Positions 3,862 to 62,545 of a DNA stretch of 64,000 bases are shown in pieces. Positions within the stretch are counted from its first letter, which is position 1. Each line of letters begins with the position of its first letter. The notes beneath the pieces were generated by a model. The model worked only from the letters and a program-made list of their open reading frames with translations. It was not told the DNA's origin and ran no database searches. Made by a program: the position numbers and the translations under genes. The stretch comes from Collinsella sp. An2 (GTDB lineage: Bacteria; Actinomycetota; Coriobacteriia; Coriobacteriales; Coriobacteriaceae), in NCBI RefSeq assembly GCF_002160065.1, contig NZ_NFJW01000006.1, positions 32,001 to 96,000 on the forward strand, read 5' to 3'.

Positions 3862-4950
3862 TTACAGATTCGCAGGGGGTTCCATGCCCAGATGGTCGTA
3901 GGCGGCAAGCGTTGCCATGCGACCGTTTTTGGTGCGCACCATGAGGCCGCGCTGCAGCAGATAGGGCTCGTAGACGTCCTCCAACGTGGCCGGGTCCTCT
4001 CCCACCGCGCTCGCCAGGGTGCTCAGACCCACCGCCCTTCCGCGGAACGTGCGCGCCAGCGTCTCGAGGATGCGGATGTCCATCCAGTCCAACCCCAGCT
4101 CGTCGATCTCGAAGAATTCAAGTGCCTCGCGGGTGATCGGAAGGTCGATGTCTCCCCCGCCGCGCACCTGCGCGTAGTCGCGAACGCGCTTGAGCAGACG
4201 GTTTGCCAGGCGCGGCGTGCCGCGTGAGCGCGAGGCGATCTCTTCGGCGGACTCCTGATCGATACGCACGTTGAGAATCGTCGCCGAGCGGGTCACGATC
4301 TGGGCCAGGTCGCGCACCGAATAATAGTCCAAGCGAAACGAGATGCCGAAGCGGTCACGCAGGGGACCTGTAAGCATGCCAGAGCGCGTCGTCGCGCCCA
4401 CCAGTGTGAAATGGGGAATTTCCAAGCGAATGGAGCGCGCCGCCGGCCCCTTGCCAATCACGATGTCGAGCGCGAAGTCTTCCATCGCGGGATAGAGCAC
4501 CTCCTCAACCGAATGGTTGAGACGGTGAATCTCATCGATGAAGAGCACGTCTCCGGGCTGGAGATTGGTGAGAATCGCGGCGAGGTCGCCCGTCCGCGCG
4601 ATTGCCGGGCCCGACGTAGTCTTGATCTGCGAGCCAAGCTCGTTGGCGACCACGGTGGCCAACGTCGTCTTGCCCAGGCCCGGCGGGCCCGAGAAGATCA
4701 CGTGGTCCAGGCACTCCCCGCGGCTCTGCGCCGCTTCGATGAGGATGCGCAGGCTTTCTTTGATATGGTCCTGTCCGCAGTAGTCGTCCAGGCGCTGCGG
4801 GCGTAGCGATCGCTCGACATCCAGGTCGTCGCTCGTCAGGCTGCCCGTGACAAACCGATCGCCATGCGCCCCGCCGTGGGAAACGGCAGAGCCGGAGCTT
4901 GTCGGAACGTCCTCCCACAGGTCTCGCGAGTCATCGGCTTCCCACATCAT
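3862..4950 (-). CDS. ruvB: Holliday junction branch-migration helicase RuvB
   Basis: A 362-aa AAA+ motor that, as a hexamer with RuvA, drives Holliday junction migration. Walker A is GPPGLGKTT, Walker B is DEIHRL, sensor 1 is [18 protein letters not shown], and a C-terminal winged helix holds [29 protein letters not shown]. The N-terminal 40 residues are a variable acidic lead before the [11 protein letters not shown] start of the conserved core. Its ATG overlaps the ruvA stop (ATGA), showing translational coupling in the order ruvC-ruvA-ruvB. Confidence 0.98.
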
Positions 4951-5564
4951 GCTCCCATTCCCAGTCGCTTGAGCGCGGCGGCGAGGATATCCTCGACCCG
5001 CATGTCACGGCCATCATACCCCTCGAGAGCAAGGTCTGTCTCCTGCGGGCTGAAGCCCATGGAGAGCAGCGCCTCGCGCGCATCGCCGAGCGCGTCCGAG
5101 GAGGCGGCCCCGATGGGAAGCTGCCCGGCGGCCGGAACGGCCTCCCCGGCCAGGCCGCGGTCTTTTGCAAAGGTGCCCTTGAGCTCCAAGATCAAGCGCT
5201 GTGCCGTCTTCTTGCCCACGCCGGGAACCGTCGCCATGGCCTTGGCGTCCTCCGAGAGCACGACGGTGTAGAGCTGTCCCACCGTGAACTTAGAGAGAAC
5301 CGACAGCGCCAGGCGTGGCCCGACGCTCGAAACGGAGACGAGCCGGTCGAACACGGTGCGCTCTGCCGCGGTCGAGAACCCAAAGAGCGACACGACGTCG
5401 TTCGAGATGCGCATCCGCGTATAGAGACGGACCTCTTCACCGGGTGTGGGCAGCGCGGCGGCCGTCGTACCCGAAATGCCCACCTCGTAGCCAACACCCC
5501 CTACGTCCAGCACAGCGGTGGACATGGTGGCTTCCAGCAGCGTTCCACGCAGTTGAGCGATCAT
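4947..5564 (-). CDS. ruvA: Holliday junction DNA-binding protein RuvA
   Basis: A 205-aa protein with the three RuvA domains: an OB fold ([30 protein letters not shown]), central helix-hairpin-helix motifs ([14 protein letters not shown] and [17 protein letters not shown]), and a C-terminal UBA-like domain ([20 protein letters not shown]) that contacts RuvB. Its start overlaps the ruvC stop by 4 bp and its stop overlaps the ruvB start by 4 bp. It binds junctions as a tetramer and recruits RuvB. Confidence 0.98.
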
Positions 5565-6109
5565 GAGTACGGATTCCCTTTCTCTTGCACGAACCGGCCG
5601 TTCGTGAGCTCCGCCGTGGAGCAGCGGTGGGCATGGCAGATGGCGCAGGCAAGGGCGTCGGCCGCATGGTCAGGACGAGGATCGTGGTCCAGGTGCAGCA
5701 GGTTGCGCACCATATATATAACCTGTCGCTTGTCGGCGGCGCCGGTGCCTACGACGTCCTGCTTAATCTGCATGGGCGTATACTCGCCCACCTCGAGCCC
5801 CGCAAGCGAACAGGCCACGAGCGCCGCCCCGCGCGCATGCGCCGTCGGAATGGCCGAGCGCGTGTTGGCACCAAAAAAGATGCTCTCGATGGCCGCGACG
5901 TCTGGATGATAGCGCCGCGCGACCGCGGCGAGCTCATCGACAATGTGCCTGAGACGCGGCGCGAGCTCTTGATCGGTGGTGGTGTGGATGCACCCGTAGG
6001 CACGGCAGCGGCATTCGCCCCGGCGCTCCTCGACGATGCCCCAGCCGGTGTTAGCCAGGCCGGGATCGAGACCCAGAATGACCACGGGCACCTCCTTCTC
6101 GCATGCCAT
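5561..6109 (-). CDS. ruvC: Holliday junction resolvase RuvC
   Basis: A 182-aa RNase H-fold endonuclease that cuts Holliday junctions symmetrically. The acidic active site is visible: Asp15 in ILGLDPGLANTGWG, Glu in AAIESIFFGAN, and the two aspartates of DHAADALACAI. The frame gives MACEKEVPVVILG; a GTG at codon 7 is another possible start, placing the catalytic aspartate at the usual residue 7-9, and GGAG-like bases lie before it. First gene of the ruvCAB operon. Confidence 0.97.
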   Translation of the reverse strand: MACEKEVPVVILGLDPGLANTGWGIVEERRGECRCRAYGCIHTTTDQELAPRLRHIVDELAAVARRYHPDVAAIESIFFGANTRSAIPTAHARGAALVACSLAGLEVGEYTPMQIKQDVVGTGAADKRQVIYMVRNLLHLDHDPRPDHAADALACAICHAHRCSTAELTNGRFVQEKGNPYS

Positions 6110-6172
6110 GCGCGGTGCAGCCGCACATCTTCGAACATCTGTTCTACTATAGCATGACCGATGTGCGCGCGC

Positions 6173-8185
6173 CTAGTTCTGCGAGAAAAACGGGAAATTC
6201 CGGTCAGGATGCGGCACCTCGAAACCGCCCGCAGCCGAGGGACGCCCATCGGACGGCCCTTCTTGGCCCGCATGTTCGATTATGCGGTTGATGGCCTCTT
6301 GCACCTGTCCTTCAAATCGCTGAAGGTTCTCGCGAATCTTTCGCTGCCCCTCCTCGGATTGCAGGTGCTCGAGCTGCTCGGGCGTGATGCCCAGCATGTC
6401 CCCGATGAGCCCCATGACCTCGCCGCGCACGCGCTCTCCGTATTCGTCACCCTTTTTAGAGATGCGGCCGAGCTCCTCCCTCGCAAGCGCATCGACCCCG
6501 CGCGGCTCCTCGCCGTGACGTCCCAGGTCGGACCAGGCAAGCGATGAGGGCCACAGACGCTCGGAAAACGAGCGACCCGACACGATCGGCGCCATCGGCA
6601 GCATGCGGCGGGCATACTCCCCCTGCCGCACCAACACCAGCAGCAGCGACACGGCTTCGCGGTCGGTCTCCACCAACGGTAGGTCCTCAAAGGGCAGGTT
6701 GCGGTCGACATGGGCCTCAAGGATGCCATCGACCTGGCTGGGCTCGAGCGGCGTGAGGACGCGTGCGATGTGGTCCGCCCACTCGGTCTCGTCCCAACCA
6801 CCCCTCATGGCGCGCGCAAAGGCCTCCGAGAGCGCATGCTCGACGGCGTTCAGCGTGACGAGCCGAGCCGGAACCGCAGCGCCCGAACGGTTGCGCACGC
6901 GCGCCAGGAACTCCAGATTCGACAAATACACGTCGCCGAACGGCGCCATGACGCCACGGTATGCGGACGCGAGGGCGGGCGCCGAGATGGCGGCATCCGT
7001 CTTGGTGATCGACGAGACTGGCAGAGCATGCTCCTGGCGCGCGAGGTCCTCCAGCAGGATGCCCTCGGCCTGCTCGCGCAGCAACGGCTCCTCCCGACGC
7101 GTCAGGGTGCGGTCGGCAAGCGCGGCGGTGTCCGGCGCCTCGTGCTCGACAAGGCGGATATGCAGATTTGTGGCAAGTGCCCGCACCTGCTCCACACGCT
7201 CCCGCTCCTCGGCCTCCTGTGCCGGCGTGAAGACTTCCGAGCGCTCGACGAGCAGCCCCACCACGTTGCGGGGGCCGAGCGCATCGACGCACAGCGCCGC
7301 GGCAAGCGACGAAGACAAATCCCCTGCGAGCACCAGCGCGGCGCGATGGCAACCGCGGGCAGCAGCGGTGTCACGAACGGCGAGCACGAGCGCCTCCCAG
7401 AGCCACTCCTCGCGACGGTACTGCGGCAGCTCGTGCGTCTCGATGCACGGCAGCTGCATCCCACGGCGCACCTCCTGCACCAGCAGCGCTTCCTCAAAGC
7501 AAGGCGCTGCGGCCACGACGCGACCTGCCTCGTCCATCACAAACGAGCCGCCGGTATACACCGCCTCGTCGAACGCGCCGACCGGGGCCATGCAGGCCAG
7601 CCAGACCCCCGCATCGGCCACCTTGCGACGAAAATGCCCGTCGGCAACCGAAGCGACGGCGCTCGACGACTCGTCGTGCACGTCGAAGGCATTCGCCTGG
7701 AAATAGACGACGATGTCGCAGCCGCGCGGCAAGAGCTCGAGGTCCCGGCGGGCGTCAAAGGTCACCGCGATGCGCGTGCCCGCGACGTCGAAGACCGGCG
7801 GCGCCCACAGGTCGTCGGAGTTCTGCTCGCGTCGATAGGCAAGCATGGTGCGGGCGGGAACTGCATGTCCCCTATCCAAAACGAAGACCTCGAACAGCGG
7901 TGCCCCTCCGTACGAGACCATGGCCGGCACGAGCGCCACCACGCCCAGATCTTCCAGACGGGTCGCCAGGCGCTCCAGGCTGCACACGAGCTCGTGCTCG
8001 TAGTTGGTGGCGTCGATGAGCCCGCCGGGCATGATGCCGCCAAGCAGCGGGGCGGGGACGCAGAGCAGGTCTGCCCCCTGCTGCTTCGCGAGAACAGCCT
8101 GACTCTCGACCCGGGCGCAGATACCCTCGATATCGCCAAGGCGCATGTCAATCTGCGCGAGCGCGATGTTCACCGACGCCACCAT
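6173..8185 (-). CDS. NAD+ synthase (nitrilase-fused) homologue with eroded active sites
   Basis: A 670-aa two-domain protein laid out like glutamine-dependent NadE: a nitrilase-like glutaminase domain (residues 1-240), an ATP-pyrophosphatase synthetase domain (265-560) and an extra helical tail (560-670). The frame of the fold is clear (TGGSFVMDEAGRVVAAAP; NVVGLL; APFGDVYLSNLEFLAR). Yet the catalytic residues are gone. The glutaminase Glu is Ala45, the Lys is Arg112, and the Cys position lies in AVTFDAR (about 140-146) with no Cys. The synthetase SGGxDS loop reads AGDLSS (287-292). It may be a non-catalytic relative or have a new role. It precedes ruvC by 63 bp on the same strand. Confidence 0.75.
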   Translation of the reverse strand: MVASVNIALAQIDMRLGDIEGICARVESQAVLAKQQGADLLCVPAPLLGGIMPGGLIDATNYEHELVCSLERLATRLEDLGVVALVPAMVSYGGAPLFEVFVLDRGHAVPARTMLAYRREQNSDDLWAPPVFDVAGTRIAVTFDARRDLELLPRGCDIVVYFQANAFDVHDESSSAVASVADGHFRRKVADAGVWLACMAPVGAFDEAVYTGGSFVMDEAGRVVAAAPCFEEALLVQEVRRGMQLPCIETHELPQYRREEWLWEALVLAVRDTAAARGCHRAALVLAGDLSSSLAAALCVDALGPRNVVGLLVERSEVFTPAQEAEERERVEQVRALATNLHIRLVEHEAPDTAALADRTLTRREEPLLREQAEGILLEDLARQEHALPVSSITKTDAAISAPALASAYRGVMAPFGDVYLSNLEFLARVRNRSGAAVPARLVTLNAVEHALSEAFARAMRGGWDETEWADHIARVLTPLEPSQVDGILEAHVDRNLPFEDLPLVETDREAVSLLLVLVRQGEYARRMLPMAPIVSGRSFSERLWPSSLAWSDLGRHGEEPRGVDALAREELGRISKKGDEYGERVRGEVMGLIGDMLGITPEQLEHLQSEEGQRKIRENLQRFEGQVQEAINRIIEHAGQEGPSDGRPSAAGGFEVPHPDRNFPFFSQN

Positions 8186-8346
8186 CCTTTCGAACGCGAA
8201 AAGGGGTCGCCCGAAGGCGACCCCTCGTTATAGCAACCTTACTCCAACCGGGGGCGCGACGGTACGCCGAGACGCGGTTTGGTCGGGCTGACCTTCCGGC
8301 GGACCTCAGCGCTCCGTCAAGCGGTCTGCTGCAGGCTGCATGGCCT

Positions 8347-8709
8347 TTAGAACGACTTCTTCCACAGGCCGTGCAGGTTGCAATAGGCGTACACGGTACC
8401 CGTCTTCATGCCGCCGGCGAAGAAGGTGGCAGGGGTCTGGCCCGGTTTGAGCTCGTGGACCTCCAGACGGCCGTCCGCCTCGAGCGCGATCCACTCGATA
8501 TAGTGCTCGTCGAGCATGGGATGCTCGACCTCGCCCACCGTCACGTGCACCACGTGGCCGTCGCGCTGCAGGTCGACAACAGGCACGTGCTTTTCCTGAG
8601 CGGCGTCGACCGAGTTCGCCTCGATAGCCTCGAAGCCCTGCGGGGCGGGCGCGTCGGCCTTCAACGCCGCGAATAGATTGCCCTGAGAGTCCTTGTAAAA
8701 CGTTGCCAT
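8347..8709 (-). CDS. Superoxide reductase (neelaredoxin/desulfoferrodoxin family)
   Basis: A 120-aa non-heme iron protein that reduces superoxide to peroxide without making oxygen, typical of anaerobes. The four His and one Cys that bind the Fe centre are visible: EKHVPV, VEHPML, DEHYIEWI and CNLHGLW near the C-terminus. It also has an N-terminal 35-residue segment (MATFYKDSQGNLFAALK) but lacks the CxxC...CC desulforedoxin centre, so it is a one-iron enzyme. AAGGG precedes the ATG. It stands alone, divergent from the decarboxylase operon. Confidence 0.93.
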   Translation of the reverse strand: MATFYKDSQGNLFAALKADAPAPQGFEAIEANSVDAAQEKHVPVVDLQRDGHVVHVTVGEVEHPMLDEHYIEWIALEADGRLEVHELKPGQTPATFFAGGMKTGTVYAYCNLHGLWKKSF

Positions 8710-61292: not shown

Positions 61293-62545
61293 TGCCCAAG
61301 CCCCAGCGCGTACTTGTTGCCATGAGCGGCGGCGTCGATTCGAGCGTCGCCGCCTGGCTGCTGCAGCAAAGCGGATACGAATGCATCGGCGCCACGATGC
61401 GCCTGTACGACACCGAGCAGCCTGGCAACGATGCGAGTGAAAGCCCCGTGCGAGCATGCGGCAACGCGAAGGACATCGAAGACGCCCGCGCCGTCGCCGC
61501 ACGCCTGGGCATTCCCCATCACACACTTGACTGCCGCGCCGAGTTTGAACGCGACGTCGTCGAGGACTTCGTGCGCTCCTACGAGCGCGGCGTCACCCCC
61601 AACCCCTGCGCCGTCTGCAATCGCCGCATCAAATTCGGCCTGTTGCTGGAACATGCGCGCGAACTGGGCTGCGACGCCATAGCGACGGGCCACTACGCCC
61701 GCATCCGCACGCGGGAGAGCTCAAACGGCACCACCTACGAGCTGGTCAAGGCGGCAGACGCGAGCAAGGACCAGAGCTACTTCCTCTACAGCCTGACGCA
61801 GGACGTGCTCGCCCATGTGATCTTTCCGCTCGGCGAGCTCACCAAAGAGGGAGACGTGCGCCGCATCGCTGCCGAGCTGGGTTTCTCGAACGCCCAGAAA
61901 CGCGACAGCCAGGGCATTTGCTTTGTTCCTCGCAACGACTTCGCAAGCTTTATCGAGCGCAGGCGAGGCCACGCCCTTCCCGAGGGCAAGGTGCTTGACA
62001 CCGCAGGCAACGTGCTGGGAAGCCATCGCGGTGCCATCCGATACACCGTGGGCCAACGCAAGGGGCTGGGCATCGCCGCTGCGCACCCACTTTACGTGAC
62101 CGCCACCGACGCCGTCGCTAACACGGTAACCCTCGGTGAGGAAGCTGACCTGTTCGCCTCTTCCCTCATAGCCGACGACTGGGTCTGGAGCGCGCCGGCG
62201 CACGTCATGGCCTCGCGTCTGGACGAGGCCCAAAGCGGCACGCCCTTCCAGGCAGCGGCTCAGATCCGCTATCACCAGCCCGACCAAGACGTGTCTCTCA
62301 GCTGGGCGGATAGCGACCAGCGGGGCGATGTTGATGAACAGCGCACACACGGCGATGTCGACGGGCGGCACGCAGCCGGCCACGCCGGCGGGCAGCACAC
62401 AGCCGGCCACGCCGACGGCACCCGCCGCATACGGATTGACTTCGCACGGCCCCAGCGCGCCATCGCGCCCGGTCAGGCTGTCGTGGTCTATGAGGGGGAC
62501 GTGGTCCTGGGCGGCGGCACCGTCGTCTGTGTTCCGCGCGCCTAG
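61292..62545 (+). CDS. mnmA: tRNA 2-thiouridylase MnmA with a low-complexity insertion
   Basis: A 417-aa enzyme that thiolates U34 of tRNA. The PP-loop is AMSGGVDSSVAAWLL (10-23), Cys109 in TPNPCAVCNRRIKF and Cys210 in SQGICFV are the catalytic pair, and KDQSYFLYSLTQ is typical. The usual size is about 360 aa; the extra length is an insertion near residues 341-376 (DEQRTHGDVDGRHAAGHAGG...) in the C-terminal beta domain, rich in H, G and D and made of short repeats. Directly coupled to cysK. Confidence 0.95.
   Translation: MPKPQRVLVAMSGGVDSSVAAWLLQQSGYECIGATMRLYDTEQPGNDASESPVRACGNAKDIEDARAVAARLGIPHHTLDCRAEFERDVVEDFVRSYERGVTPNPCAVCNRRIKFGLLLEHARELGCDAIATGHYARIRTRESSNGTTYELVKAADASKDQSYFLYSLTQDVLAHVIFPLGELTKEGDVRRIAAELGFSNAQKRDSQGICFVPRNDFASFIERRRGHALPEGKVLDTAGNVLGSHRGAIRYTVGQRKGLGIAAAHPLYVTATDAVANTVTLGEEADLFASSLIADDWVWSAPAHVMASRLDEAQSGTPFQAAAQIRYHQPDQDVSLSWADSDQRGDVDEQRTHGDVDGRHAAGHAGGQHTAGHADGTRRIRIDFARPQRAIAPGQAVVVYEGDVVLGGGTVVCVPRA

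Follow-up and report, generated by a model that had tools for sequence, protein, structure and literature searches.

Results

The nadL locus and the fold of its product

Within the window analysed here, a 64,000-nucleotide stretch of the Collinsella sp. An2 genome (bases 32001-96000 of contig C43; genome size 2.54 Mb, completeness 99.9 percent), a gene upstream of ruvCAB raises the question of why a protein with the fold of a NAD synthase is kept after the apparent loss of both of its active sites. The original prediction for this gene left a choice between a new, perhaps non-catalytic, role next to ruvCAB and a second, true NAD synthase elsewhere in the genome. We refer to the gene as nadL, a name coined in the present analysis; the features of the locus are compiled in Table 1.

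The intact frame of 670 amino acids that had been predicted was recovered without interruption at exactly 6173-8185 on the minus strand. Proteins of relatives begin at residue 5, and therefore a GTG at 8173 is probably the true start, four residues in, with a product of 666 amino acids. Among named organisms, Enorma phocaeensis has the closest protein (81 percent identity), ahead of Candidatus Limicola and Collinsella, which puts the genome in the Coriobacteriaceae and probably in the genus Enorma. For the neighbouring genes, we take 5561..6109 (-) to be ruvC, as in the original prediction, and 8347..8709 (-) is presumably superoxide-reductase/desulfoferrodoxin-like, judging by its sequence.

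Table 1. Features of the nadL locus, with positions counted from the first letter of the window
Feature	Position	Strand	Basis
nadL, NadE-derived, both active sites lost	6173..8185	-	ORF, Pfam/NCBIfam matches, relatives
Nitrilase/glutaminase-like domain, residues 1-245; Glu->Ala45, Lys->Met114, Cys->Phe143	7451..8185	-	Pfam CN_hydrolase, alignment with 12 intact NadE
NAD-synthetase-like domain, residues 256-553; without NxQAR, TGNKSE, GYSTLYGD, KPPSAE	6527..7420	-	Pfam, alignment, structure match
SGGxDS loop remnant AGDLSS, residues 287-292	7310..7327	-	Alignment
Fast-evolving nadL tail, residues 554-662; predicted helices 564-597 and 602-639, then disordered	6200..6526	-	Alignment, AlphaFold
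Conserved C-terminal peptide FPFFSQN-COOH, residues 664-670	6176..6196	-	Comparison of relatives
GAACAGATGTTC, presumed SOS (LexA-type) box between nadL and ruvC	6133..6144	-	Box in 37/37 related loci
GC hairpin and T run between superoxide-reductase-like gene and nadL	8199..8224	-	Sequence of gap
ruvC (presumed), neighbour	5561..6109	-	ORF list; conserved neighbour
ruvA, neighbour	4947..5564	-	ORF list; conserved neighbour
ruvB, neighbour	3862..4950	-	ORF list; conserved neighbour
Small gene, presumably superoxide-reductase/desulfoferrodoxin-like, neighbour	8347..8709	-	ORF list; conserved neighbour

The two-domain architecture typical of PRK13981/NF010588, nitrilase-like followed by NAD-synthetase-like, was recognised by Pfam, Foldseek and VIA-align alike, in line with the predicted retention of the fold. 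Pfam placed CN_hydrolase at residues 7-241 (E 9.6e-9) and NAD_synthase at residues 263-363 (E 4.1e-6), and NCBIfam PRK13981 (NAD+ synthase) covered residues 3-542 at 129.9 bits, far below its curated cut-off of 479, which leaves nadL outside that family by score. The AlphaFold model, computed from a thin alignment, had a mean pLDDT of 68 and a pTM of 0.48; its best match was the glutamine-dependent NadE 3n05 (Foldseek E 2.3e-22; VIA-align Z 23.8 over 460 aligned residues, rmsd 7.6). Past residue 553, the tail comprises about 117 amino acids, close to the 110 residues described as helical in the original prediction; a helical part is indeed predicted at 564-639, but residues 640-670 are predicted to be disordered, both at low confidence, with the last 30 residues having a pLDDT under 50.

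A further, weak PF02540 NAD_synthase match (20.5 bits) was observed in the window at 61304-61693 (+), inside a 480-amino-acid frame (L004) that probably encodes another PP-loop enzyme.

Loss of both active sites

As a reference for alignment, we employed 12 two-domain NadE proteins from other Coriobacteriia orders, all 12 of which have the Glu-Lys-Cys triad and the SGG[ILV]DS loop intact. Against this reference, the catalytic Glu column is occupied by Ala45 in nadL, the Lys column by Met114 and the Cys column by Phe143. Hence the loss of both sites stood up to alignment, as did Ala45 and the missing Cys; Arg112, previously assigned to the catalytic Lys, falls instead in a Tyr column. The SGGxDS position reads Ala287-Gly-Asp-Leu-Ser-Ser292, just as predicted.

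The same picture was obtained in the two families carrying the gene, namely Coriobacteriaceae (f1) and its sister family f5, which we take to be Atopobiaceae (f2-f10 are used as family codes). Sequences were fetched for 20 of 64 f1 relatives and for 18 of 21 f5 genes (all except those of G084, G105 and G111). All three triad residues were absent from 21/21 f1 proteins; among the 18 f5 proteins, Glu and Lys were kept in none and Cys in one, a row that is probably misaligned. The loop Asp (D291) was retained in 0/21 f1 and 0/18 f5 proteins, G289 in 1/21 and S287 in 4/21 of the f1 set, and none of the three in any f5 protein. Of the 119 columns that are invariant in the 12 intact enzymes, f1 retained 27 and f5 retained 20 at a level of at least 80 percent; the same test applied to 19 relatives with a live synthetase loop (described below) retained 80. 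The motifs of the NadE synthetase domain that bind substrate are known for the family, and in the f1 and f5 synthetase half nearly every invariant column within those that are recognisable was lost, the columns kept being glycine, proline and core residues. On this alignment, the conservation pattern of nadL reads as a preserved scaffold with gutted pockets, and we infer that the protein has no catalytic activity.

Two enzymatic readings have to be weighed against this pattern. That nadL still makes NAD through displaced catalytic residues would agree with the retained fold and with some remaining loop residues; it is nevertheless extremely improbable, given that the SGGxDS Asp, NxQAR, NKSE, YGD and KPPSAE are gone in f1 and f5 and that every f1 and f5 genome has a match to an intact-type NadE. 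A new activity in remodelled pockets, for instance other amide-bond or nucleotide chemistry, is quite unlikely. In its favour, the f1 proteins share a fairly constant new loop consensus, xGDLxSS, and Lys395, Thr396, Asp418, Arg431 and Arg526 are nearly invariant across f1 and f5; Lys395, Asp418, Arg526 and others could belong to a new active site, which would count against a pseudoenzyme. Against it, the f5 loop at the SGGxDS position is highly variable, the residues retained are mostly glycine, proline or part of the core, and the nitrilase-like half has no Cys/Lys/Glu.

An intact NadE elsewhere in the genome

The search of the genome for an intact nadE, suggested along with the original prediction, returned a glutamine-dependent NadE at G000:C44 in a frame of over 800 amino acids, with the motifs LPELCLTGY, AKQYLPNYGEF, VEVCEDLW and LSGGLDST, and thus with Glu, Lys, Cys and SGGLDS intact. 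It is of the Mycobacterium tuberculosis type, for which Cys176, Glu52 and Lys121 are given as catalytic residues in PMC6946656. A PF02540 match of this type was present in 65/65 f1 and 22/22 f5 genomes, and the NadE motifs could all be read in each gene checked (20 of the 65 f1 genomes and 22/22 in f5). Two of the f5 genes have Thr instead of Pro before the Glu. In G135 (f5), the M. tuberculosis-type gene, L143, is split over two frames by a frameshift or a sequencing error.

NAD in Coriobacteriaceae cells is therefore presumably made by the M. tuberculosis-type NadE, whose presence means that the nadL ancestor could lose catalysis. The two options originally offered as alternatives turn out to hold together: the second NadE was found, and the non-catalytic role is argued from conservation.

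This co-occurrence might also point to a regulatory role of nadL toward the active NadE, either through mixed assemblies or by sensing NAD precursors and controlling NadE. Its descent from a NAD synthase fits such a role, as does its constant company with the M. tuberculosis-type enzyme (65/65 f1 genomes, and f5 wherever nadL is present). We consider it rather unlikely, however, since the active NadE lies on a distant branch, with solved structures of its type sharing no more than 13-14 percent identity with the nadL model, since nearly all substrate-binding motifs of the nadL synthetase half are gone, and since the terminal peptide described below is already found on the f3 enzyme of G066, a genome in which no second NadE was detected. 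Control of NAD synthesis by PII through NadE is, as judged by its title, the subject of PMC7196632.

Selection and shift of constraint

In four gene pairs, the dN/dS of nadL was 0.135, 0.185, 0.255 and 0.274, ratios that are rough because dS was near or above 0.8. Orthologues were present in 64/64 Coriobacteriaceae relatives searched (65/65 f1 genomes including the own one) and in 21/22 f5 genomes. nadL is thus under purifying selection, without decay, and the maintenance originally read from its open frame is borne out by dN/dS, by the 64 relatives and by a conserved gene context. Taken together, the alignment and the dN/dS values place the loss of catalytic motifs under purifying selection, as expected for a pseudoenzyme, which nadL very probably is.

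The dN/dS values and the presence of the gene across relatives led us to reject a decaying pseudogene. Similarly, a slowly dying leftover without function is highly improbable: the loss of both sites, the one f5 genome without the gene and the high divergence are what such a leftover would display, but the ratios of about 0.13-0.27, the occurrence in 65/65 f1 and 21/22 f5 genomes and a nearly invariant end peptide speak against it. The f5 genome without a nadL match, G093, is complete in one contig, and close genomes of the same genus keep the gene; nadL was therefore dispensable at least once.

Constraint has shifted in nadL toward the nitrilase-like half, whereas live relatives conserve their synthetase half more strongly. 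Pairwise identities for the nitrilase-like and synthetase-like halves were 0.50 and 0.45 in f1 and 0.41 and 0.36 in f5, compared with 0.45 and 0.61 in f6 and 0.59 and 0.71 among intact NadE. The f3 enzyme L059 is divided in the same sense, its nitrilase-like half being closer to f1 than to f6 (0.29 vs 0.20) and its synthetase half closer to f6 than to f1 (0.50 vs 0.25). Within f1, the nadL tail is fast-evolving (identity 0.34), and its last seven residues reach 0.73.

Probable order of the losses within Coriobacteriia

Seven other families of the order contributed 19 two-domain relatives, of which 19/19 have kept the SGGxDS loop and 0/19 any of the triad residues, which indicates that the glutaminase died first. 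No second NadE was detected at E below 1e-12 in 16 of the 19 genomes with these live-loop relatives, the exceptions being G069, G075 and G143; such cells presumably run an ammonia-fed enzyme. The 19-row group and the full-length tree were assembled without L084 (contig end), L094 (single domain), L124/L125 and L095, an f8 protein of 538 amino acids in which SGGLDS is present and the glutaminase Glu absent.

Three quick trees were computed. In the 70-row tree, f1 and f5 formed one clade (100*), sister to L059, which carries SGGIDS (97*). Common descent of nadL with an active enzyme is further reflected in a neighbour gene, as the superoxide-reductase-like gene also lies at L059. From these distributions, we infer a stepwise loss, from intact NadE through a dead glutaminase with a live synthetase to a protein in which both sites are lost.

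A second case was encountered in the f3 genome G074, where the loop reads AGDLDSS and the eroded second half is on a separate contig. The nitrilase-like domain of this protein groups with L059 (99*), apart from f1 and f5, and the f3 synthetase loss was therefore independent. G074 also holds a foreign short NadE, L186, with SGGKDS. By these alignments and trees, the synthetase was lost at least twice independently, each time beside another NadE, and we regard this as the strongest argument that the protein was relieved of catalysis but preserved for some other property. The G074 gene (L084, L193/L194) is split by contig ends, and its MPLFSKN end is retained.

An origin of the f2 single-domain NadE by dropping of the dead glutaminase domain was set aside: the protein was placed inside the order's clade, but with support 85, no star and long branches.

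A conserved C-terminal peptide

The nadL protein ends in [FY]F[SA]xN in 64/65 f1 genomes, the remaining gene (G063) being cut by a contig end; 61 of these 64 ends were found by pattern at the nadL position and three by eye (FPYFSQN twice, SFFAQN once). An FSxN end was likewise present in 18/18 f5 proteins, and the f3 ends are FPIFSKN in L059 and MPLFSKN in G074, so that the motif over families can be written [F/L/Y]F-S-x-N-COOH after a variable tail. Serine codons at the motif alternate between TCN and AGC, indicating that the constraint acts on the protein. As L059 is still active and has an FSxN-type end, the peptide is most simply older than the loss of NAD synthesis.

No FSxN-type end was found in the two-domain proteins of four f7, one f10, two f4, one f9 and one f2 members, and when the protein ends of the own genome were searched, no further FFSxN end turned up. 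In relatives, the commonest other matches read FFT or end in TGG and are pattern artefacts, next to a few single matches in some genomes. The f6 NadE with a live loop have a short tail with a terminal Asn and no FSxN in 9/9 proteins (L078, L080, L081, L083, L087-L089, L092, L093); this Asn may or may not be related to FSxN, f6 not being sister to f1, f3 and f5 in the tree.

Relation to ruvCAB

The order superoxide-reductase-like gene, nadL, ruvC, ruvA, ruvB was conserved in 20/20 f1 loci fetched; in f5, ruvCAB followed nadL in 17/18 loci and the superoxide-reductase-like gene preceded it in 13/18. A GAAC-N4-GTTC box, which we take to be the LexA/SOS box, lies between nadL and ruvC in 37/37 related loci and in the window, with 0.05 expected by chance. 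In the window, GAACAGATGTTC is found directly after TATAGT at 6146-6151 (-), upstream of ruvC. As the box occurs in every nadL-ruvC gap, we read it as a damage-controlled promoter that ruvCAB has of its own, separate from nadL. If nadL acted together with RuvABC, be it in the processing of Holliday junctions or in the SOS response, its place directly before ruvC (20/20 f1, 17/18 f5 loci) would be accounted for; the SOS box in all 37 loci and the window, together with the lack of ruvC in the stretches fetched around the two f3 genes with the same end peptide, makes such a role very unlikely. The link to ruvCAB put forward originally thus finds no footing in the promoter arrangement, and a role in that operon was set low accordingly. 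The 37 boxes also provide a clean collection of SOS boxes from Coriobacteriaceae and f5.

Directly before nadL lies TATAAC (8227-8232, minus strand), and after it comes a GC hairpin with four T. This hairpin (8199..8224) is either, probably, the terminator of the superoxide-reductase-like gene or a nadL leader hairpin. It had no match in a terminator scan (only four T), and a repeat search at default length found no inverted repeat there, although the short hairpin is plain. By eye, the nadL upstream regions displayed no obvious shared regulator site beyond a -10-like element.

Discussion

A function that may have outlived NAD synthesis

The best explanation overall is, in our opinion, that nadL serves as a scaffold without catalysis and docks a partner through its end peptide, a job that would be older than the death of the enzyme; we give it about an even chance of being right. 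In an ancestor within the order, the glutaminase half of a two-domain NAD synthase would have been the first to die, and what remained was presumably an ammonia-fed enzyme. NAD synthesis would then have passed, in the ancestor of f1 and f5, to a second NadE, glutamine-dependent and of the M. tuberculosis type, after which the old synthetase site would have been lost as well. We propose that nadL was kept because a second, non-catalytic job was already in place. For this job the dead nitrilase-like domain would provide a folded platform, and [F/L/Y]F-S-x-N-COOH, carried on the flexible tail, would dock into a partner protein; belief and doubt are equally balanced for this docking mechanism. Counting against it are the complete f5 genome from which nadL is missing, the low pLDDT of the last 30 residues, by which the model gives no hint of where the peptide goes, and the absence of the motif from all other protein ends of the own genome. 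More generally, and more tentatively, at somewhat short of even confidence, the NAD synthase of the order may have had a second, non-catalytic function, formed by the dead glutaminase domain and the C-terminal peptide, which survived the end of NAD synthesis on at least two independent occasions, in genomes that each hold another NadE.

If such a function did outlive NAD synthesis, nadL and its relatives would represent an interaction module of gut bacteria that is family-wide and has gone unrecognised. The intact enzyme, the dead glutaminase with a live synthetase and the protein with both sites dead plus a replacement make up an ordered, replicated series in one class, which allows tests of how a moonlighting function can preserve a protein whose enzymatic role has been taken over. 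On the practical side, automatic annotation of gut Collinsella and their relatives may label nadL as a NAD synthase and thereby mislead metabolic models.

Comparison with known NAD synthetases and pseudoenzymes

NAD synthetases exist in fused and single-domain forms, a mosaic that has been explained by transfer and loss in the part of PMC3376133 available to us; this part contains no inactive form, and the terms Collinsella, Olsenella and Actinobacteria, where searched, gave no mention. The Coriobacteriia series adds to this published picture. In the literature searched, there was no report of nadL, of a NAD-synthase pseudoenzyme or of a dead NAD synthase in Coriobacteriia. Pseudoenzymes as such are known; what is new here is one derived from a NAD synthase with an unusually well-ordered history.

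Among known systems, nadL is closest to the PRK13981/NF010588 NadE (3n05, 5kha, 4f4h), with which it shares descent, the best fold match and the same two domains in the same order (residues 3-542), and from which it differs in its score (129.9 vs 479 bits), in the loss of the triad and SGGxDS, and in an extra tail of about 117 amino acids with a conserved end. The M. tuberculosis-type NadE (3syt, 6ofc; here G000:C44) is of the same superfamily, but is encoded separately and has kept Cys, Lys, Glu and SGGLDS. Single-domain, ammonia-dependent NadE (1nsy, 1wxi) has a fold in common with the synthetase-like half (Z about 19); in contrast to these enzymes, nadL is devoid of the P-loop motif and of the substrate motifs. 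Finally, nadL resembles pseudoenzymes in general (reviews PMC5106787 and PMC10211241) in having kept the fold, lost the catalytic residues and remained conserved beside an active relative.
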